Source: an uncultured Acidobacteriia bacterium (GTDB lineage: Bacteria > Acidobacteriota > Terriglobia > Bryobacterales > Bryobacteraceae). From it: DNA of 44,761 nucleotides. Below are positions 31,010 to 42,944 of the stretch, piece after piece. The DNA is taken from positions 1 to 44,761 of the forward strand of contig CAIRXZ010000136.1 of assembly GCA_903882645.1 (NCBI GenBank), read 5' to 3'. A program made the position numbers and the translations under genes. The notes under the pieces are model-generated. The model did no database searches, was not told where the DNA came from, and was given only the letters and a program-made list of their open reading frames with translations. The stretch's first letter is position 1. Each line of letters begins with the position of its first letter.

Positions 31010-32113
31010 GTGCCCGATTTCTCTCGCAGACCCGATCCCGAGGAGTTGCTGCGGCGCGTCGAGGCGGAAGAACGCCAAAAGCGCCGCGGCCGGCTGAAGG
31101 TATTCCTGGGCTACGCCCCGCGCGTCGGCAAGTCCCTCCGCATGTTCGACGAGGGCCGGCGGCGCGCGGAACGCGGCGAGGACGTGGTGGTAGCCGCGGT
31201 CCAAGGCGACGTCTCGCCCGATATTCAGGCCATTCTCGCCAAGCTCGAAGCGGTCCCCACCGTTCGGGAACTCCATGACGGCCGCGCCTACGAAGTCATC
31301 GATCTCGCCGGCCTTTTCCGCCGCCACCCTCAGATTGTTCTGATCGACGGCCTGGCGAGCGACAATCCCCCGGGCAGCCGCAATCCCCAGCGGTGGCAGG
31401 ACGTTGAAGATCTGCTGGAGCACGGCATCGGCGTTGGGACCGCGGTGAACGTGCAGCACATTCTGGAGCGCCAGGACGACGTCGCGCGGGTCACCGGAAA
31501 GCGGGCATCGAACAGCGTCCCGGAGGCGTTCCTGAACGAGGCCGACGAAATCGAAGTCGTGGATGCGCCTCCCGAGGCCCTGCTGGGCCGCGGCGGCGGG
31601 GCCGGAATGCCGGATGCGCATCAGCTCGCCGAGTTGCGCGAGCTGGCCCTGGTGCTGGCCGCCAACGTGGTGGATCGCCAGCTTCAGCACTACCTCAGCC
31701 TGCACGGGATCGCTCCCACGTGGGGCGTCGAGGAGCGCATTCTGGTGTGCCTGACGGCGCGCAGCAACGCCGCCGCCATGCTGCGCAGCGGCCGGCGCAA
31801 CGCGCGCCGCTTTCATGGCGCTCTCCTGGTCGCCTACGTCGAGCAGGAGGAAATCAGCCCCGAGGACCGCCGCAAGCTGGACGCCAACCTCGATCTGGCC
31901 CGGCAACTCGGGGCCGAAATCCACTGTCTCAAAGGCGCGGATTTCGTGGACGTCATCCTCGGTTTTGCGCGTGAGATGCGCGCCACCCAGGTCTTTCTTG
32001 GCCACACCCAGCGCGAGAAGCGGCCGTGGTTTTCCCTTTCGCCCATCGAGCGGCTGATCGAAGAAGCCGTTGACATGGATGTGCGCCTCTTCCCGCACGG
32101 CGGCGCCGCATGA
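31010..32113 (+). CDS. KdpD N-terminal domain protein with degenerate nucleotide site, no kinase
   Basis: A 367-residue protein equal to the N-terminal sensing part of KdpD only. The first domain (about 28-240) has LGYAPRVGKSLRMFDEG where KdpD has GxxPGVGKTxxM: the core Gly-Lys-Ser remains but Pro-Gly becomes Pro-Arg. IVLIDGLASDN (Asp 113) stands in place of DELAHTN, losing the Glu and His. RWQDVEDLLEHGI and VNVQH are kept. A Usp-like domain follows (RILVCLTARSNAAAMLRSGRR, about 245-367). There are no transmembrane helices, HisKA or ATPase domain. Start GTG 31010 (or TTG 31007), just after kdpC; the stop overlaps the next start as ATGA. Likely a partner or regulator of the second KdpD-like protein (inference). 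Confidence 0.85.
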   Translation: MPDFSRRPDPEELLRRVEAEERQKRRGRLKVFLGYAPRVGKSLRMFDEGRRRAERGEDVVVAAVQGDVSPDIQAILAKLEAVPTVRELHDGRAYEVIDLAGLFRRHPQIVLIDGLASDNPPGSRNPQRWQDVEDLLEHGIGVGTAVNVQHILERQDDVARVTGKRASNSVPEAFLNEADEIEVVDAPPEALLGRGGGAGMPDAHQLAELRELALVLAANVVDRQLQHYLSLHGIAPTWGVEERILVCLTARSNAAAMLRSGRRNARRFHGALLVAYVEQEEISPEDRRKLDANLDLARQLGAEIHCLKGADFVDVILGFAREMRATQVFLGHTQREKRPWFSLSPIERLIEEAVDMDVRLFPHGGAA

Positions 32114-33171
32114 GCGACGGGAATAAAGGCCGGCTGAAGATATATCTCGGATACGCCGCCGGGGTCGGCAAGACCTACCGCATGCTGGACGAAGCGCGGG
32201 CGCTCCGCGCCGAAGGGGCGGACGTTGTCATCGGCTATTTCGAGCCGCACGGCCGCCGCGACACCATCGCCAAGACCGAAGGCATGGAGATCGTCCCGCG
32301 GCGCATCGTCGCGTACGCAGGCGCCGAGTTCGAGGAGATGGACGCCGAGGCCATCCTGCGCCGCAAGCCCGCCGTGGCCGTGGTCGATGAGCTCGCCCAT
32401 ACCAACGTGCCCGGCGCCGGCCGCGAGAAACGCTGGCAGGACGTCCGCGCGCTCCTCGACGCCGGCATCGACGTTCTCACCACCATGAACGTGCAGCACC
32501 TGGAGAGCCTCAACGACCAGGTCTGGCGCGTCACCGGCGTGCGCGTGCGCGAAACCCTGCCGGATTGGGTCCTGGACGACGCCGACGAGGTGGTGTTCGT
32601 GGACCTCACGCCGCAGGCGCTGCGCAACCGCATCGAGCGCGGCGTGGTTTACGCGCCGGAGAAGGCGCGCCGCGCCATGGACAACTTCTTCACCGAGACG
32701 AACCTCGCCGCGCTGCGCGAAATCGCCATGCGCCACGCCGCCCACGAGGTGGAAGGACGGCGCCGTCCGGCCCCCGCGCGCGCCCCCGCCGCCGGCCGCG
32801 AGCGCATCCTGGTCTGTCTCACCGGCAGCCCCTCCTCCGCCATCCTGATTCGCCGCGGGAAGCGGGTGGCCGACTATCTCCAGGCCGATTGCCTGGCGCT
32901 GCACGTCTCCGGATCGTCCGAGCGCGATTCCAGGAGCGTGGAACGGCACATGAGTTTCGCCCGCAGCCTGCGGATCGACACCCACGTGGTGGACAGCCCC
33001 GGCATCGCCGCCGCCATCGCGAACTTCGCCCGCGAGCGGCGCATCACTCAGATCTACCTGGGCCGCTCCGCGCCCCGCCCGTTCTGGAAGCGCCTGCGCG
33101 AAAGCGTCGTGCAGCAAGTGGTCCGTCTGGCCCGAGACAAGCAGATCACCATCGTGGCCCAGCGGGGGTAG
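32110..33171 (+). CDS. kdpD: KdpD N-terminal sensing domain plus Usp domain, canonical motifs, no kinase
   Basis: A 353-residue protein. The KdpD domain has an intact Walker A (GYAAGVGKTYRML, residues 14-26) and Walker B-like VVDELAHTNVPG (91-102), plus KRWQDVRALLDAGIDVLTTMNVQHLESLND. The Usp-like domain (ERILVCLTGSPSSAILIRRGKR, about 232-353) follows and the protein ends there. A full KdpD would continue with four membrane helices and a histidine kinase. No kdpE or kinase gene follows. Truncated KdpD forms are known in some bacteria; here the pair may act on the pump or on a distant regulator. The symbol is used in the family sense only. Confidence 0.88.
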   Translation: MSDGNKGRLKIYLGYAAGVGKTYRMLDEARALRAEGADVVIGYFEPHGRRDTIAKTEGMEIVPRRIVAYAGAEFEEMDAEAILRRKPAVAVVDELAHTNVPGAGREKRWQDVRALLDAGIDVLTTMNVQHLESLNDQVWRVTGVRVRETLPDWVLDDADEVVFVDLTPQALRNRIERGVVYAPEKARRAMDNFFTETNLAALREIAMRHAAHEVEGRRRPAPARAPAAGRERILVCLTGSPSSAILIRRGKRVADYLQADCLALHVSGSSERDSRSVERHMSFARSLRIDTHVVDSPGIAAAIANFARERRITQIYLGRSAPRPFWKRLRESVVQQVVRLARDKQITIVAQRG

Positions 33172-33251: not shown

Positions 33252-33620
33252 CTACCGAAGCGGCAGAACCCTGGCGCGCGGCCGGTCCGACCAGTCGAGC
33301 GAAACGATGGCGCCAAGTTCGAGTTCCGCCTCGCAATCCCGAATCGCGCGGAGTAACGCCTCGCCGCGCGCTTCGGGGACCAGTGGCTCGCCGCGAAGCA
33401 GGACCACGCTTGGAGCCGCTTGCCTGGTGTGCGCGAGCATCTGAGGGAAATCCATGTCATTGGTCAGGAGGACGAAGGCATGTTCGCGGGCGTAATCGCA
33501 GATTGCAGGATCCTTTGCGCGCGCCGGGCCGACCTCGGACCAGTGAATCGCTTCGTGCCCGAAGTCCCTTAGATACGAAGCCCAGCGATACGTCAGGTTC
33601 ATATCGATGAGAATTCTCAT
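33252..33620 (-). CDS. DUF5615 family PIN-like protein (putative toxin)
   Basis: A 122-residue protein with the DUF5615 pattern MRILIDMNLTYRWASYLRDFGHE at the start, TNDMDFPQMLA in the centre and VLLRG after it. The acidic residues of a PIN-like nuclease core (IDMNL, NDMDF) are present. ATG 33620 overlaps the DUF433 stop as ATGA, the usual antitoxin-first arrangement. Probable RNase-type toxin of a type II-like pair; activity unproven for the family as a whole. Confidence 0.85.
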   Translation of the reverse strand: MRILIDMNLTYRWASYLRDFGHEAIHWSEVGPARAKDPAICDYAREHAFVLLTNDMDFPQMLAHTRQAAPSVVLLRGEPLVPEARGEALLRAIRDCEAELELGAIVSLDWSDRPRARVLPLR

Positions 33621-36045: not shown

Positions 36046-36969
36046 ATGCCCCATCCCATCCAGGTCGAAGGTCTCACCAAGGACTACGGCTCCGTCCACG
36101 CCGTCAAGGGCATCGATTTCGAGGTCCGCGCGGGCGAGGTCTTCGGACTGCTCGGACCCAATGGCGCCGGCAAGACGACCACCGTCGAAATCCTCGAAGG
36201 CCTGCGGGCGCGCACCGGCGGGCGGGTCACCGTACTGGGCCGCGATCCCGAAGTGCAGACCCGCGAGCTGAAGGACCGCATCGGCGTCTGCCTGCAAGCC
36301 ACGCGCCTCCAGGACAAGCTCAAGGTTCACGAAGCCATGGAGCTGTTCGCCGCGCTCTACACGCGCACCGTCGACGCCAACCAGCTCCTGAAGCGCCTGC
36401 AGCTCTGGGAGAAACGCGAGGCGCATTACTCCACGCTCTCCGGCGGGCAGAAGCAGCGGCTCGCGCTGGCCCTGGCCCTCATCAACGATCCCCAAACGCT
36501 GTTTCTCGACGAGCCTTCCACCGGCCTCGACCCCCAGGCGCGCCTCGAAATCCGCGACCTGGTTCAGGACCTCCGCCGCGAGCAGCGCACCATCCTCCTC
36601 ACGACGCACTACATCGAGGAGGCCGAGAAGCTCTGCGACCGCGTGGCCATCGTGGACGAGGGCCGCATCATCGCCATGGGAACGCCGCGCGAGATTCAAG
36701 ACCGCGCCGGCGGGGAATCCGTCATCGAGATCGAATGCGCCGTCCCGCTCGATGCCGCCGCGCTCCCCAACTGGCGCGACGCGGAAAAGGTCTCGCTCGA
36801 CGAGGGCCGCACCCGGGTCTCGGTGGTCTCCCGCAAGCCCGCGCGCTCCATCGTGGATATGATGAAGTGGCTCGACGAGAAGGGCATCGAGCTCGCCGAC
36901 ATCCGCATCAAGCGGCCCTCGCTCGAGGACGCCTTCATCGAACTCACCGGAAAGAGCCTTCGCGAATGA
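36046..36969 (+). CDS. ABC transporter ATP-binding protein
   Basis: A 307-residue ATPase with Walker A GPNGAGKTTTVEIL (about residues 36-49), signature TLSGGQKQRLALAL, Walker B LFLDEPSTGLDPQ, and the H-loop TTHYIEEAE. The C-terminal extension (DEGRTRVSVVSRKPARSIVDM, RIKRPSLEDAFIELTGK) is typical of DrrA/CcmA-type exporters of the ABC-2 family. Its stop overlaps the start of the permease gene as ATGA. It powers export of an unidentified substrate. Confidence 0.95.
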   Translation: MPHPIQVEGLTKDYGSVHAVKGIDFEVRAGEVFGLLGPNGAGKTTTVEILEGLRARTGGRVTVLGRDPEVQTRELKDRIGVCLQATRLQDKLKVHEAMELFAALYTRTVDANQLLKRLQLWEKREAHYSTLSGGQKQRLALALALINDPQTLFLDEPSTGLDPQARLEIRDLVQDLRREQRTILLTTHYIEEAEKLCDRVAIVDEGRIIAMGTPREIQDRAGGESVIEIECAVPLDAAALPNWRDAEKVSLDEGRTRVSVVSRKPARSIVDMMKWLDEKGIELADIRIKRPSLEDAFIELTGKSLRE

Positions 36970-39167
36970 GAGCCTACGTAGCGCTGTTCAAGAGCAACAT
37001 GCTGCTGACCCTTCGGGACCGCTCCGTCCTCTTCTTCAACTACGCCTTTCCCTTGATGTTCTTCTTCATCTTCGCCGGATTGTTCGCCGGCGCGGCGGGG
37101 ACGGGCATCTCGTTCTACGTCGGAATGGTCCTCACCATGGGCATTCTGGGCAACGGGCTTTTTGGCGCGGGCATGCGCGCCGTGGCCGAGCGCGAAGCCA
37201 ATATCCTCCGCCGCTTCAAGGTGACGCCCATCTCGCCGCTGCCCATCCTGGTGGCGGCCATGGTGAGCGGATGGCTGCTCTACCTGCCCGTGGTGGCGCT
37301 GCTGATCGGGCTGGCGCATTTCGGCTACGGCATGCCGGTTCCGCGCCAGTGGTTCTCGCTCTTCCTGATGGTTACGCTCGGCCTGTGCGCGTTCCGCGCC
37401 ATCGGCCTGATCCTCGCGGCCGTGACCAACACCATGCAGGAGACCATGATCCTGACCCAGCTTCTCTACCTGCCCATGTTGCTGCTGAGCGGCGCCACCA
37501 TCCCTTCGGCCGTGCTTCCCAAATGGGTGCAGACCGCCGCCGAGTTCATGCCGGCCTCCTACCTGGTGAGCGGTTTTCAGGGCATCTTTTTCCGTAACCA
37601 GACGATTCTGGACCACGGCCCGGCCGTGGCGGCTCTGCTGGCCACTACCGTGTTGGGGATGTTCCTCGCCGTGCAGCTTTTCCGCTGGGAGAAGGAAGAG
37701 AAGATCCGGCCGCGCAACAAACTGTGGGTTCTTGCGGTCCTCGGGCCCTACCTTCTCATGGGCGGCTACCGCGCCTACACCAAGGAGCACCTCGGTCTCA
37801 ATCAGGCCATGTACCGCGACGTGCAACGCTCCGGCGCGTTTCTCATCCGCAACGCGCGCATCTTCACCGCGGCCGGCCAAACGATCGAAGACGGCTCCGT
37901 GCTGGTGCGCGACGGCAAGATAGCGGAGATCTACCAGGGACCGGGGCCCGATCCGGCCAGTCTGAAGGCCGACGTGGTGGAAGGCGCGGGCAAGACCCTG
38001 CTGCCCGGCTTGATCGATGCCGACGTGCGCCTGTCGCTCCTTGGCGGCGTCTCCGCCGGCAACCGGGATTACGAGCCGGCGAAATCCATGCCGCGCGCCG
38101 CGGCGGCCCTGCTCTACAGCGGCGTGACGGCCGCCCGCAGCCTCGGCGACGGCCTCGACGCTTCCCTGGAATTGCGCGCCGATATCGGGCTGGGCGCCAA
38201 ACTGGGCGCGCAGCTTTTCGTTTCCGGCCCTCTCGTCGCCTCCGAAGCCGCCCGCGGCGCCGCGGGGTTCCCGGACACGCTTCCGGCAGCCGTCCGGAAG
38301 ACGCTGGAACCTCAGTTGGTCCGCACGCCCAGAACGCCGGAAGAGGCTCGCCGCCTGGCCCGCGATTTCAAGACCGCCGGCGTGGATGGCCTGGCCGCCA
38401 TTCTGGACCCCGGCTGGGGCGATGGGGCCGTCGCCGACCGCCTGGACCTTCTGCTGGCGCGCTCCGTCGCCGAAGAGGCGCGCGCGCGGAAGCTGCCGCT
38501 GGCCGTCCGGACCGGCGACGCGCGCGACGTGGCCGACGCCGTCGAGATCGGCGCCGCCTCCGTCGAGCGCGGCTCATGGCGCGACGAATTGCCCGGCCCC
38601 CTGCTCGACCGCATGGCCCGCCAAGGCGTGTACTACGTCCCGGCCCTCGCCGCCGCCGAGGCCCGCGCGCGCTACTATGGCGCCAACGCCGCCGGCCTGA
38701 CCGATACCCTGGTGCAGCAAGCCGTCTCAACCGGCGTATGGAACGCCACCCGCGATCTGCTGGCCTCCGGCAAAACCGCCGACCCATCCAAGGCCGCGCG
38801 AGATCGGCAGGCCTTCGAGCAAGCCCGCGCCAACCTGCTGCTCGTCTGGAAAGCCGGCATCCCTCTGGCAACCGGCACAGGCGCCGGCGATCCGCTGGTG
38901 TTCCACGGCCCGTCGCTCCACCGCGAATTGCAGCTTTGGGTCGAAGCCGGCATCCCCCCGCAAGTCGCCCTGGAAGCCGCCACCTCCACCGCCGCCAGGC
39001 TCCTCGGCGCCTCCAACCGCATCGGCTCCATCCGCAAGGGCCTGGACGCCGACCTCCTGCTGGTGGACGGCAACCCACTGGAAGACATCGCCGCCACCGA
39101 ACGCATTTCCCTGGTGGTATTCAAAGGGGAGCGGCTGCACCGCGCTGCGTTGTTCGAGCAGAAATAG
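36966..39167 (+). CDS. ABC-2 permease fused to an amidohydrolase-like domain lacking metal ligands
   Basis: A 733-residue single open frame. Residues 1-240 are an ABC-2 permease (MRAYVALFKSNMLLTLRDRS; six hydrophobic segments; LPMLLLSGATIPSAVLP). A seventh helix (LWVLAVLGPYLLMGGYRAY, about 252-270) leads into an imidazolonepropionase-type amidohydrolase fold from about 291 (FLIRNARIFTAAGQTIEDGS) to the end (GSIRKGLDADLLLVDGNPLE). The expected metal ligands are missing: GLIDADVR replaces GLIDxHxH (about 348), AVRTGD and VERGS replace the two later His sites (about 514 and 533), and ATGTGAGD replaces GTDxG (about 637). A non-catalytic, probably extracytoplasmic binding domain is inferred. Coupled to the ATPase gene by ATGA. 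Confidence 0.88.
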   Translation: MRAYVALFKSNMLLTLRDRSVLFFNYAFPLMFFFIFAGLFAGAAGTGISFYVGMVLTMGILGNGLFGAGMRAVAEREANILRRFKVTPISPLPILVAAMVSGWLLYLPVVALLIGLAHFGYGMPVPRQWFSLFLMVTLGLCAFRAIGLILAAVTNTMQETMILTQLLYLPMLLLSGATIPSAVLPKWVQTAAEFMPASYLVSGFQGIFFRNQTILDHGPAVAALLATTVLGMFLAVQLFRWEKEEKIRPRNKLWVLAVLGPYLLMGGYRAYTKEHLGLNQAMYRDVQRSGAFLIRNARIFTAAGQTIEDGSVLVRDGKIAEIYQGPGPDPASLKADVVEGAGKTLLPGLIDADVRLSLLGGVSAGNRDYEPAKSMPRAAAALLYSGVTAARSLGDGLDASLELRADIGLGAKLGAQLFVSGPLVASEAARGAAGFPDTLPAAVRKTLEPQLVRTPRTPEEARRLARDFKTAGVDGLAAILDPGWGDGAVADRLDLLLARSVAEEARARKLPLAVRTGDARDVADAVEIGAASVERGSWRDELPGPLLDRMARQGVYYVPALAAAEARARYYGANAAGLTDTLVQQAVSTGVWNATRDLLASGKTADPSKAARDRQAFEQARANLLLVWKAGIPLATGTGAGDPLVFHGPSLHRELQLWVEAGIPPQVALEAATSTAARLLGASNRIGSIRKGLDADLLLVDGNPLEDIAATERISLVVFKGERLHRAALFEQK

Positions 39168-39272
39168 AAGGGCGGCGGGGCATCTGCAAGCCGGGTAGGA
39201 GGAGGAAGAAGCCCGTGGCGCAAGCCGACCTGGGGAGTAGTTTCTGTAAGGTGGTAAAATCGCCGTCACGAA

Positions 39273-39533
39273 ATGCCTACGATCAGCATTTTCTACGGGA
39301 TCTTGATCCGGATGTTCTTCAATGATCACGCGCCGCCCCACTTTCACGCCCGCTACGGCGAGTTCGAGGCTACGGTCGACATCGGCGCCCTGGAAATCAT
39401 CGAAGGCCAGTTGCCGCCCCGCGCTTTGAACCTGGTTCGGGAATGGGCGATGATACATAGAGAGGAATTGTTGCAAGACTGGCGGTTCTGCCGCGAGAAA
39501 ACGGCGCCGGCGAAAATCGAGCCGCTGGCGTGA
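39273..39533 (+). CDS. DUF4160 family protein
   Basis: An 86-residue protein with the DUF4160 pattern MPTISIFYGILIRMFFNDHA, PPHFHARYGEFEATVDI, GQLPPRALNLVREWAMIHREEL and a final helix. The H-x-x-P-P-H-F-H motif is intact. It is followed 16 bases later by a DUF2442 gene, a very common pairing that looks like a toxin-antitoxin module; the biochemical role is not established. Confidence 0.9.
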   Translation: MPTISIFYGILIRMFFNDHAPPHFHARYGEFEATVDIGALEIIEGQLPPRALNLVREWAMIHREELLQDWRFCREKTAPAKIEPLA

Positions 39534-39549: not shown

Positions 39550-39825
39550 ATGTATTGGGACGTAGTTGAAGTGAAGCCCGAGCCGCACTACTGCCTCTTC
39601 GTCCGGTTCAAAGACGGATTGACGGGGCGCGTACTGTTGCGGCGAGAAGAACTTACTGGCGCTCTCGCGCCGTTGCGGGACGAGCGGTTCTTCGAGCGGG
39701 TTTTCATTGATTACGGCGCAATCGCGTGGCCAGGTGAGATCGATCTGGCGCCGGATGCTATGTACGCTCAAGTCGCCGGCCAGTATCGTGAGCCGCAGCA
39801 GGCTGGTCCAGGGAAGAGTCGCTGA
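39550..39825 (+). CDS. DUF2442 family protein
   Basis: A 91-residue protein with the DUF2442 pattern VVEVKPEPHYCLFVRFKDGLTGRV, LRDERFFERVFIDYGAIAWPGEIDLAPDAMY. The tail after about residue 76 (AGQYREPQQAGPGKSR) is less typical. It is partner of the DUF4160 gene. A decayed member of the other DUF2442 subtype is at 33883. Confidence 0.88.
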   Translation: MYWDVVEVKPEPHYCLFVRFKDGLTGRVLLRREELTGALAPLRDERFFERVFIDYGAIAWPGEIDLAPDAMYAQVAGQYREPQQAGPGKSR

Positions 39826-39846: not shown

Positions 39847-39923
39847 CCGCCGCCGAACGCATTTCCCTGGTGGTGTTCAAAGGGGAGCGGATACGCCGCG
39901 CGGCGTTGTTCGAGCAGAAGTAG
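39847..39923 (+). pseudogene. Duplicated 3' end of the permease-amidohydrolase gene
   Basis: A 77-base copy of 39091-39167, without gaps and with seven mismatches (about 91% identity), ends in the matching TAG at 39921-39923. Both copies are followed by similar sequence (AGAAGCCCGTGGCGCAAGCCG near 39206 and AGAAGGCCCGCGGCGCAGGCCG near 39990). The two copies bracket the DUF4160-DUF2442 pair. Confidence 0.85.
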
Positions 39924-40037
39924 GAGCCAGTGGGGCGGACCTCCTGGTCTGCCTTCTTTCGGGCCGCATCGAGCGGGGTTGATCGCGCTGAAACAGAAGG
40001 CCCGCGGCGCAGGCCGTGGCAATGATGTGCTCGAACC

Positions 40038-40661: not shown

Positions 40662-41042
40662 TTAGGGAACGGCGTACATCCGAATGCCCGGCACGTCTTC
40701 GAAATCGGCGCGGTTCAGCGTCCAGAGGCGCGCCTCGCGCACGATGGCGCAGGCGGCGATCGCCAAATCGACTTCGCGTCCTCGCGGGCGCCGCACGGCG
40801 CGGTAGAGACGAGCGCCGGCGGCGGCCTCTTCCGGGCCGAAGGGAATCGCCGACCTCGCGGGGAAAAGCGCTTCCTGCGCGGCTACCTCCTCCGCCAGGC
40901 GCGGTCCCCGCAGCCACTCGTAGAGGACCAACGCGGGAATCGAAATCCGCTCCCCTTCCGCAATGGCGCCGCGGATCGCGGAGCCCGACCGCTTCGACCC
41001 CGTCAGCCCATCGACGAGCACGGACGTGTCCAGGACGATCAT
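40662..41042 (-). CDS. PIN-domain toxin, VapC-like
   Basis: A 126-residue PIN nuclease. Acidic residues are in place: MIVLDTSVLVDGL (Asp 5), PALVLYEWLRGPR (Glu), REVDLAIAACAI (Asp) and TLNRADFEDVPGI (Asp). Such toxins cleave RNA such as initiator tRNA or rRNA; the target here is unknown. ATG 41042 overlaps the stop of the ribbon-helix-helix gene as ATGA; a Phd-type gene follows nine bases after its stop. Confidence 0.92.
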   Translation of the reverse strand: MIVLDTSVLVDGLTGSKRSGSAIRGAIAEGERISIPALVLYEWLRGPRLAEEVAAQEALFPARSAIPFGPEEAAAGARLYRAVRRPRGREVDLAIAACAIVREARLWTLNRADFEDVPGIRMYAVP

Positions 41043-41335
41043 TTGCGGTTCCTCGAAAGCGGCGGCCGGCCACCGGTTCGCCGGGCGCGGCGGATCTCCC
41101 GCAGCTCCCTTTCAACTTCGCGTTGCGGACGAGCGGGTATCGGCGGGACCACGGCGTCGAAAACCTTTAGCATCCTCAAGCGCTCGTTCTCGCTCAAGCG
41201 GCCAATCCGGCTGTGAAAGTCCGCCACGGCTTCGCGGACAATCTGGCTCTTCGGCTTGGCCAGGCGTTCTGCGGCATCGTCGATCCGGTGGACGGTCTCC
41301 CGGTCCAGAGTAAACGTGACTTTGTTGGTTGCCAT
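41039..41335 (-). CDS. Ribbon-helix-helix antitoxin
   Basis: A 98-residue protein. The N-terminus MATNKVTFTLDRETVHRIDD, then AAERLAKPKSQIVREAVADF, is a classical ribbon-helix-helix DNA-binding domain. The basic C-terminal tail (EVERELREIRRARRTGG) would contact the PIN toxin. ATG 41335 has AAAGGT directly upstream; longer openings run into repeat sequence. It is coupled to the PIN gene by ATGA overlap and forms the likely cognate antitoxin. Confidence 0.87.
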   Translation of the reverse strand: MATNKVTFTLDRETVHRIDDAAERLAKPKSQIVREAVADFHSRIGRLSENERLRMLKVFDAVVPPIPARPQREVERELREIRRARRTGGRPPLSRNRK

Positions 41336-41363
41336 ACCTTTACCATACCATTGCCATATCACT

Positions 41364-41428
41364 GAGCCGCGAACGTGAGAGAGCGGTTGCCGGCACGAGA
41401 TTCTACCGCTCTCTTGCGTTCGCGGCTC
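41364..41428. repeat. Inverted repeat of the NRSLTFAA type, 65 bp
   Basis: Arms GAGCCGCGAACG-TGAGAGAGCGGT and ACCGCTCTCTTG-CGTTCGCGGCTC pair with about two mismatches. The right arm overlaps the 3' end of the glycosyltransferase gene and encodes its final residues (ANARER). It lies between that gene's stop and the antitoxin promoter region. Confidence 0.8.
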
Positions 41429-42944
41429 CGCCAGACCCACCGGCGGCGGAGACCGCCGGCGGTACTGGTGGCTCGAACACTACCACGTCCACGTCCCCAT
41501 GCGGATGCCGCACCGCTCGCCACCCCGCCAACTCCGGCCGCCCCGCGAACCATTTCCGCCAGAACCGCGTCGCTCCGTTGCCGCCGTATAGCAGGAACCG
41601 CCGCGAGTTGGAAAGGGCGCCCTTCGTGAGTTCCAAAGCGTAGCGTTCGGCTTCCGGCGAGGTCTCGAACGGGAACAGGTAGGCCTTCCCCTTGATCGGG
41701 TATACCGGCAGGTGCGCGTAAAGGAACCCGGGCATCGGGTAATCCGGCCGCCACTCGGGAGGCCGCGCCTCGATAAACGGGCTGGGACAGATCACCGGCG
41801 TGTCCGGCGCAAGGGCCAAGGCGCTCACCTCGCGGGCCGCCCCGCGCCAGTCCGAATTCTCGTGCGCGGGCCAAAACTGGCCCCACTGTCCCAGCACGAG
41901 CAACCCTCCGGCGCCCACCAGCGCCGCCAGCCGGTTCCAGCGGGCCGCCGGGACAAACCGGGCCACGAGAGCCGTGGCCGTCAGCGCCACCCCCGGCAGC
42001 ATCAGAAAGATGTAGCGCCGCACGAACACGCTGTTGCCGGTGAGCCAGGAGAACGCAAACAGGCACACCGGCTGGCAGAGCCACCAGCCGAGAAACAGCG
42101 CAACCGAGGTCGGCGAGATCGGCGCCTTGTCGGGCTTCCAGCGGAACAACCGGCTCAGAATCCAGGCGTCGCCGGCGCAGATCGCCACCACGTTCCATCG
42201 CAGCGCGTGCTCGAACTCGTGAAGCGTGGGAGGCTTCACGATCACGTGAGCTTTCGCTTCGCGGAACAATGCCAGCGAATCCATCAGGACCGGGGCCAGC
42301 GCCAGTCCCGCCAGTCCGAAAACGGCGGCCGTCCTCAGCCAGCCTGCTCGCGATTCCCCGCGCGCCAACCGCAGGACCGCGTAGCCCGCGAACACCAGGT
42401 AGAACGGCCAGAAGATCAGGTGTACTCTCCAGAGCAGCGCCGCGAACAGCGCGAAGAGCAGGCCGTCGCGCCACCGCGCCGCGTCCAGCCAGCGGACCAG
42501 AAACAGCGCGCCGGCGGCCGCCACGCACGTGCCCAGAGCGTAAGGCCTTGCGTCCGCCGCCTGGTAGTCGATGCCGTTCAGCGCCAGGCACGCGAAGGCC
42601 GCGAACCAGCCGGCCCGGGGATGAATCAGTCGCGCGGCCAGGCGCGCCACCAGCGCCAGCGCGATGCCCATCGCCAGAACCGAAGGCAGCCGGTAGACAA
42701 CCTCGGAGAATCCCAGCATCGCTTCGGCCAAGCGGGGCAGCCAGTAGTAGATCGAGTGCGGAACCTGCGGCGCCACGGCCAGCGATGGGTCGGCCGCGCC
42801 ATGCCGCACCACGAACGCCGTGGCCATTTCGTCGATCCAGAAGCTCGATCCCAGCGGCATCAGCCAGAGCCGCGCCACGACCAGAATCAGGAGCGCCGTC
42901 AGCCACACGCCGGGCCGCGCCTTGCGCAACGCTTCGAGCTTCAT
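41403..42944 (-). CDS. Polytopic glycosyltransferase, ArnT/PMT (GT39/83)-like
   Basis: A 513-residue membrane protein with about 10-12 transmembrane helices and a C-terminal soluble part. The first outer loop has [16 protein letters not shown], the acidic catalytic motif of this superfamily, and later [15 protein letters not shown]. Such enzymes move a sugar from a polyprenyl phosphate to an outside acceptor. ATG 42944 overlaps the GT2 stop as ATGA, and the GT2 gene could make its polyprenyl-phosphate sugar donor. The extreme C-terminus ([11 protein letters not shown]) is encoded by a palindromic repeat. Confidence 0.83.

Follow-up and report, generated by a model that had tools for sequence, protein, structure and literature searches.

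An ABC-2 exporter permease fused to an amidohydrolase domain that has lost its metal ligands in a member of the Bryobacteraceae

Locus and gene products

The window analysed here is a stretch of 44,761 nucleotides (contig CAIRXZ010000136.1, assembly GCA_903882645.1) from an uncultured Acidobacteriia bacterium of the family Bryobacteraceae. Positions 36966-39167 of its forward strand form one uninterrupted frame of 733 codons, beginning with ATG at 36966 and ending with TAG at 39165-39167, which joins an ATP-binding cassette (ABC) exporter permease of the ABC-2 type to an amidohydrolase domain devoid of its metal ligands. The ATG overlaps the TGA of an ABC ATPase gene (36046-36969) by four bases. 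The features of the locus are the following.

36046-36969, + strand: ABC ATPase (DrrA-like), 307 amino acids (Pfam ABC_tran, 108.5 bits; DrrA1-3_C, 27.6 bits)
36966-39167, + strand: fusion open reading frame (ORF), 733 amino acids, comprising ABC-2 permease, seventh helix (TM7) and amidohydrolase domain without metal ligands (translation, Pfam, model)
36966-37700, + strand: ABC-2 permease, residues 1-245, six membrane-length helices (Pfam 4-209; model helices)
37710-37781, + strand: seventh membrane-length helix, residues 249-272, present in permease-only homologues too (model)
37836-38006, + strand: N-terminal half of the beta-sandwich, residues 291-347 (model strands)
38007-39026, + strand: (beta/alpha)8 barrel and C-terminal helices, residues 348-687, ligands lost (model, Foldseek, alignment)
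38022-38030, + strand: HxH motif, now Asp353-Val-Arg355 (alignment, sequence)
38394-38396, + strand: bridging Lys position 477, now Ala (alignment)
38508-38510, + strand: His ligand position 515, now Arg (alignment)
38568-38570, + strand: His ligand position 535, now Arg (alignment)
38880-38882, + strand: Asp ligand position 639, now Gly, in GTGAG (sequence, alignment)
39027-39164, + strand: C-terminal half of the beta-sandwich, residues 688-733 (identity comparison)

Residues 4-209 matched the Pfam family ABC2_membrane (87.3 bits against a cut-off of 26.9) and residues 344-723 matched Amidohydro_1 (PF01979; 58.3 bits against 25). The AlphaFold2 model of the protein, with a predicted local distance difference test score (pLDDT) of 86.4 and a predicted template-modelling score (pTM) of 0.83, runs from an N-terminal helix through six membrane-length helices, the seventh at 249-272 and a further helix at 274-288 to the beta-sandwich and barrel. 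Its input was an alignment of 22 natural fusions, spanning the protein end to end apart from one row cut at residue 52 by the end of its contig. Pfam, the model and Foldseek all place the hydrolase part in the two-domain amidohydrolase fold, a beta-sandwich with a (beta/alpha)8 barrel. An earlier note on this DNA had described a single in-frame fusion, and the undivided 733-codon frame bears this out; a sister ORF in the same genus (L039, genome G002) matches window residues 1-733 at 75%, which rules out an assembly or frameshift artefact.

Metal ligands and nearest relatives

Subtype I amidohydrolases bind two metals through an HxH motif, a carboxylated lysine, two histidines and an aspartate. 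When the ligand positions were placed by alignment to intact homologues and, through a profile, to 2qs8, all six proved to be replaced in the window protein (H353D, H355R, K477A, H515R, H535R and D639G), and its binuclear site thus reads D, R, A, R, R, G. Five of these changes (HxH, the two later histidines and the aspartate) had been recognised in the earlier note, which missed the loss of the bridging Lys477. To judge from the alignment, nothing is left in the window protein for binding metal in the usual manner. In the homologous enzyme ADH3, changing a single ligand is reported to abolish activity (PMC11342369).

The nearest solved relatives are enzymes of the Xaa-Pro dipeptidase/arginine carboxypeptidase type. 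Foldseek against the PDB returned 2qs8 (Xaa-Pro dipeptidase; E 7e-24, template-modelling score 0.83 on the target), 3mtw (Cc2672) and 2p9b at the top, and a sequence profile search agreed on these relatives. The earlier note's description of the fold as imidazolonepropionase-type did not survive as a subfamily assignment and is a loose annotation name: structures of imidazolonepropionase itself (HutI) appear only from Foldseek rank 47 and TIGR01224 reaches 32.6 bits against a cut-off of 298.15, on which grounds a HutI identity was rejected. Depositor naming may explain the label, as 8yag, 8yak and 9l2o, which are close ochratoxin-type hydrolases, carry the molecule name imidazolonepropionase, whereas the titles of 8yag and 8yak speak of an amide hydrolase and an ochratoxin-detoxifying amidohydrolase. 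The Xaa-Pro dipeptidase model NF051886 scored 110.8 bits, below its equivalog cut-off of 500, and among the best 25 of 42 NCBIfam models for the window fusion none reached its cut-off.

Distribution of the fusion

A first scan of the genome contigs with the single protein as query found no relative. A search of the family gave matches at E<=1e-60 in 163 of its 237 genomes, many of the compared genomes being metagenome bins, and in 49 of the 76 genera; four of the matched genomes hold stand-alone enzymes (G124, G196, G258, G259). A fusion unique to the window genome was rejected on this spread, and the fusion is old. From 157 loci the census drew 146 distinct ORFs; in 144, permease and hydrolase are both present, wholly or in part. 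Without the two permease-only ORFs (L069, L236) and six others that a contig end or an apparent break in the frame interrupts, 138 end-complete ORFs remain, and these are used below. Seventeen of the 163 matched genomes lay outside the census and were inspected later: one copy ends after TM7 (G110), three are frame-broken (G112, G236, G247), and the remainder are barrel-deleted (G203, G204, G217 and G178, of which G178 is also truncated where its contig stops) or run off a contig end. Among the 159 matched genomes with the permease part, an ORF ending after TM7 was found in three (L069, L236, L348); in L236 a stop lies near codon 268 and the hydrolase follows behind it, still in frame.

Outside the family, an exporter with a membrane-anchored amidohydrolase, fused or neighbouring, occurs at L307:5431-8148, L309:3854-7871, L310:4476-8203 and L150:3913-7614. 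CIA30 domains close L307, L309 and L310, and L307 and L310 have histidine kinase genes as neighbours; in these traits we see a likeness to systems that detect envelope-active compounds and pump them out. At L314 and L315, two stand-alone amidohydrolase genes stand in tandem near a gene for an ABC ATPase.

Recurrent loss of the active site

All six ligands are intact in 82 of the 138 end-complete family ORFs, and at least one is missing in 56. The barrel has been largely lost in 32 of these 56 (567-658 amino acids), an ORF counting as barrel-deleted if it is shorter than 665 amino acids and has gaps in at least two ligand columns. Clustering at 70% identity gave 67 clusters, 34 of them wholly intact, 28 wholly lost and 5 mixed; the sister L039 keeps four of the six ligands. 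The relatives outside the family are intact in seven of seven cases, four fused (L307, L313, L316, L187, the first two being close kin at 93% identity) and three split (L309, L310, L150). Since intact sites are found both in these relatives and in most family ORFs, the site was already there at the origin of the fusion and was lost afterwards. The comparison thus gives the window protein an intact-site ancestor and a site lost since, as expected of a pseudoenzyme.

On a tree built from the permease columns only, the distribution of intact and lost sites needs 21 changes (13 of them forced by starred branches), the loss of three or more ligands 17 and the barrel deletions 11; the tree is a quick one, with support from the Shimodaira-Hasegawa-like approximate likelihood ratio test (SH-aLRT) only, and its stars on long branches are less trustworthy. 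The earlier note had named homologues with intact HxH and Asp as evidence that would speak against a pseudoenzyme. They are plentiful, and for the family as a whole its view does not hold; loss that is shared between genomes is confined to certain clades. As far as sequences can tell, the fusion is not inherently a pseudoenzyme and appears to be an ancestrally active exporter-hydrolase whose site was lost many times.

Of 44 distinct stand-alone relatives in the phylum, one has lost a ligand, the first His, and the other 43 are intact, so ligand loss goes with being fused. The 44 rows represent 25 clusters at 70% identity and 35 at 90%, and no matching stand-alone ORF was lost to the coverage filter. 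This control is tilted towards intact sites, its rows being best matches to a mostly intact fusion profile or to L307. Fused point-mutants score close to intact members (1134.6 bits for the window protein against 1232.2 for the best), so that the tilt should matter mainly for deletions. One pattern search that favours intact HxH, in which 80 of the 230 matching loci were kept, was left out of the control.

A dead barrel could still bind the exported compound without cutting it and so capture substrate for the pump, as the dead C39-like domain of HlyB does with its cargo. Exporter-fused peptidases whose dead versions recruit substrate are described in PMC6363468, and the window ORF and 23 other ligand-losing ORFs stay long (644-735 amino acids, with 5 of the 24 under 710). 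However, the barrel that would do the binding is the eroding part, mostly deleted in 32 ORFs through 11 changes on the tree, whereas the beta-sandwich persists. Moreover, the C39-like domain is N-terminal and cytoplasmic. We regard substrate capture as unlikely.

Selection on the ligand-less domain

The ratio of nonsynonymous to synonymous substitution rates (dN/dS, by NG86) was computed for 35 pairs, of which 14 lost/lost and 16 intact/intact pairs were used, three mixed pairs and two intact pairs with undefined dS being dropped. For the hydrolase part it lies between 0.052 and 0.210 in the ligand-losing pairs (median 0.173) and between 0.058 and 0.229 in the intact pairs (median 0.106; p 0.077). 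The quotient of hydrolase over permease dN/dS is 2.43 in lost against 1.38 in intact pairs (p 0.0034). Barrel remnants taken alone gave 0.049-0.287 in the lost pairs. When the hydrolase part was divided into barrel and beta-sandwich, using 14 pairs of each kind (two of the 16 intact pairs omitted), the medians were 0.175 and 0.114 for lost and 0.116 and 0.092 for intact pairs. These ratios point to purifying selection on the ligand-less domains of the relatives, relaxed but far from neutral. The window/L039 pair gave 0.161 for the permease and 0.187 for the hydrolase.

What is retained differs along the domain. Mean pairwise identity in the two halves of the beta-sandwich is 0.54 and 0.55 among barrel-deleted members and 0.54 and 0.56 among intact ones, with permease values of 0.58 and 0.55, respectively; the barrel diverges or is gone. 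In the window protein, identity to seven intact cousins is 0.48 over residues 556-640, where the cousins share 0.68 among themselves, and 0.81 over the C-terminal half of the beta-sandwich, where they share 0.78. A barrel-deleted member of 586 amino acids, modelled on 29 of the 32 deleted ORFs, is predicted to be well folded (pLDDT 89.6, pTM 0.86), and its best structural matches fall in the same amidohydrolase group, as loose ones (target template-modelling scores mostly 0.4-0.54, root-mean-square deviation 9-15). From these comparisons it appears that evolution has kept the barrel less faithfully than the beta-sandwich and the C-terminal part.

These data bear on whether the domain is simply decaying neutrally, its substrate lost and the C-terminal dead weight carried in frame because there has been too little time for trimming. 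Decay of this kind would fit the relaxed selection in the ligand-losing lineages, the barrel deletions in 32 of their 56 ORFs, the greater erosion of the window barrel relative to its cousins, and the three relatives that end after TM7 together with a few frame-broken copies. It fits poorly with a dN/dS far below 1, barrel remnants included, with a beta-sandwich as conserved as that of intact members, and with the survival of the remnant in a clade that unites 15 barrel-deleted ORFs of four genera; truncations after TM7 are also few, although a stop or frameshift is the easiest loss. We therefore think neutral decay quite improbable, and the argument of the earlier note that conservation speaks against plain decay is supported by the relatives' dead domains (dN/dS 0.05-0.21, beta-sandwich kept).

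The same pattern is compatible with a purely structural module that holds together the permease homodimer or an envelope partner, by analogy with the inactive dihydroorotase chain of the transcarbamoylase dodecamer of Pseudomonas. Conservation of the beta-sandwich and of the C-terminal motif in barrel-deleted members would agree with this, as would the confidently predicted fold of the barrel-deleted remnant, and folds of the amidohydrolase superfamily can be inactive and yet needed chains (PMC7053772). Against it stand permease-only homologues bearing TM7 in the order and class, from which it follows that this permease family can work without the domain. We think such a module somewhat less likely than not.

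Membrane topology and the seventh helix

The loop between TM6 and TM7 (FRWEKEEKIRPRNK) contains six positive charges, which suits a cytoplasmic location. By eye, most of the stand-alone relatives inspected start with a signal or lipoprotein peptide, and the hydrolases of split operons have an N-terminal hydrophobic anchor of their own. Because of these three features the window hydrolase domain is most likely exoplasmic, and the placement outside the cytoplasm made in the earlier note gains support by the same reasoning.

That note had treated the seventh helix as an extra one belonging to the fusion. The helix is present in the model, but it is not a mark of the fusion: by eye, TM7 and a short tail behind it also occur in permease-only homologues from the order and class (L070-L074) and from the family (L069). 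Acquisition of the helix together with the hydrolase domain was rejected for this reason, and the helix is probably older than the enzyme fusion.

The exporter and neighbouring genes

The translation of the window ATPase shows GPNGAGKTT as an intact Walker A motif, LSGGQ as the signature and LFLDEP as Walker B, and with its position in the same apparent operon it qualifies as the cognate ATPase of the exporter. Because the scores lie below the NCBIfam cut-offs for both drrA (TIGR01188, 275.5 bits against 312.45) and drrB (TIGR01247, 40.3 against 223.05), we call the exporter only DrrAB-like. In 103 of the 107 family loci that leave 2.5 kb for it, an ATPase gene lies directly upstream. Upstream of the exporter, 47 of these 107 loci have a DJ-1/PfpI gene (e.g. 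L047:5432-6849), and 13 have a gene for a beta-lactamase-like serine hydrolase (PF13354). In the window, an aldo/keto reductase gene lies upstream of the ATPase on the opposite strand, and the DJ-1 relative found elsewhere in the genome is only 31% identical over a partial length. DJ-1 is commoner with dead domains (Fisher p 5.6e-5, 102 loci), but was rejected as a marker of them, the association not being significant after allowing for kinship (phylogenetically independent pairs, median p 0.22). A role in anti-phage defence was likewise rejected, as no PADLOC model matched the fusion protein; the window ATPase matches 12 PADLOC models over partial stretches only, and we presume these models to be ATPases.

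The last 80 bp of the fusion gene (39091-39170) are repeated at 39847-39926 (+), 756 bp downstream, with 90% identity. Between the two copies lies a pair of small genes, 39273-39533, whose product we take to be DUF4160-like, and 39550-39825 (DUF2442 by Pfam). ERISLVVFKGERIRRAALFEQK-stop can still be read from the downstream copy, which is 92% identical to the intact cousin L040 over 63 nt; the insert may thus have displaced the old end of the fusion gene and supplied a new one.

Proposed role of the tethered domain

The ATPase and the fusion protein would form a DrrAB-like ABC-2 exporter carrying a hydrolase domain outside the membrane, behind TM7. The domain would derive from a metal-dependent amidohydrolase of the Xaa-Pro dipeptidase/arginine carboxypeptidase type, and the most likely target of the ancestral enzyme is the pump's own amide- or peptide-like cargo, which it would have hydrolysed. 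Besides this, we infer that the domain gained a second, non-catalytic role in the exporter, residing most likely in the beta-sandwich and C-terminal helices; candidates are stabilising or pairing of the permease, or holding of the substrate at the exit. With all six ligands gone, only the non-catalytic role could remain in the window protein. An exoplasmic, export-linked hydrolase with an added non-catalytic role, the sole one left in the window protein, is the reading that we favour and consider somewhat probable.

Several observations weigh against it. Frame-broken copies exist, three in the permease part (L059, L304, L305) and three in the later-inspected genomes named above, though draft errors may account for them. 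Two of the four genomes of the window genus had no match (G001, 85% complete; G003, 95%), so the exporter system is dispensable. The relaxed selection on the hydrolase after ligand loss is also expected from slow decay, dS exceeds 1 in several pairs, and YN00 gave no values in many. For the window protein itself, L039 is the one close comparison and has kept only part of the site, so that selection after the loss is not separable. The window locus also has neither the DJ-1/PfpI nor the PF13354 gene.

In a wider sense, exporter-tethered exoplasmic amidohydrolases may constitute an undescribed export-and-process class, consisting of an ATPase, an ABC-2 permease and an anchored hydrolase, fused or split and with or without CIA30, and represented in Acidobacteriota as well as in at least one metagenome bin from the Gammaproteobacteria. 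What the tethered enzyme contributes to export without catalysis would in that case matter so much that catalysis, or the greater part of the barrel, was given up again and again while the rest was kept. The window protein, full length and without a single ligand, would be among the clearest examples. We put this broader proposal forward as a conjecture with nearly as much for it as against it.

Other features of the window

A DUF5615 PIN-like gene (33255-33620, - strand, 81 bits) adjoins a small ORF that we take to be a DUF433 partner, the two presumably forming a toxin-antitoxin-like pair. A second PIN-domain gene (40662-41440, - strand) is preceded by a small ORF, presumably ribbon-helix-helix-like, in what we take to be a VapBC-like pair. 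The ORF at 32110-33171 (+) combines a KdpD sensor domain (310 bits) with a weak Usp match and has no kinase domain, and represents a short KdpD.

Comparison with known systems

Hydrolases fused to transporters are mainly known from the C39 peptidase exporters. No description of an ABC permease-amidohydrolase fusion was found in the open-access full-text literature, a scope outside which most subscription journals lie, and the available parts of PMC8620254 and PMC13081902 contain no such fusion.

The window exporter resembles the DrrAB-type systems in its pairing of ATPase and permease in one apparent operon, in the ABC2_membrane match of 87 bits and in its drrA-like ATPase; what sets it apart is the additional helix TM7 and an amidohydrolase domain of 440 residues that is probably exoplasmic. 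With the Xaa-Pro dipeptidase and L-Arg,L-Lys carboxypeptidase-type enzymes (2qs8, 3mtw, 2p9b, 3be7, ochratoxinase, ADH3) it shares the two-domain fold, and 82 of 138 fused relatives also share their six ligands, but the window domain is fused to a permease and has no ligand left. The Pseudomonas pseudo-dihydroorotase is an amidohydrolase-superfamily chain that is cytoplasmic and unfused to a membrane protein, and it belongs to a different subfamily from the window domain. This inactive chain is necessary for the aspartate transcarbamoylase complex (PMC7053772). As in AMS/PCAT and HlyB, a hydrolase is fused to an exporter and occurs in active and dead versions; the dead C39-like domain of HlyB is still essential for secretion, according to PMC6363468. 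These two precedents make a second, non-catalytic life of the window domain plausible. The Pfam scan, which found four families, detected no C39 peptidase domain, and unlike that of AMS/PCAT and HlyB, the window hydrolase is unrelated, C-terminal, probably exoplasmic and carried on an ABC-2 permease. What the family adds to these systems is a different hydrolase, which most likely faces the exit of an ABC-2 pump and whose site was lost many times within one bacterial family. With copies of one domain that are intact, failing, dead or trimmed, the family offers a natural series for asking what an enzyme is worth to a transporter apart from catalysis, and for finding the cargo of unstudied soil exporters.

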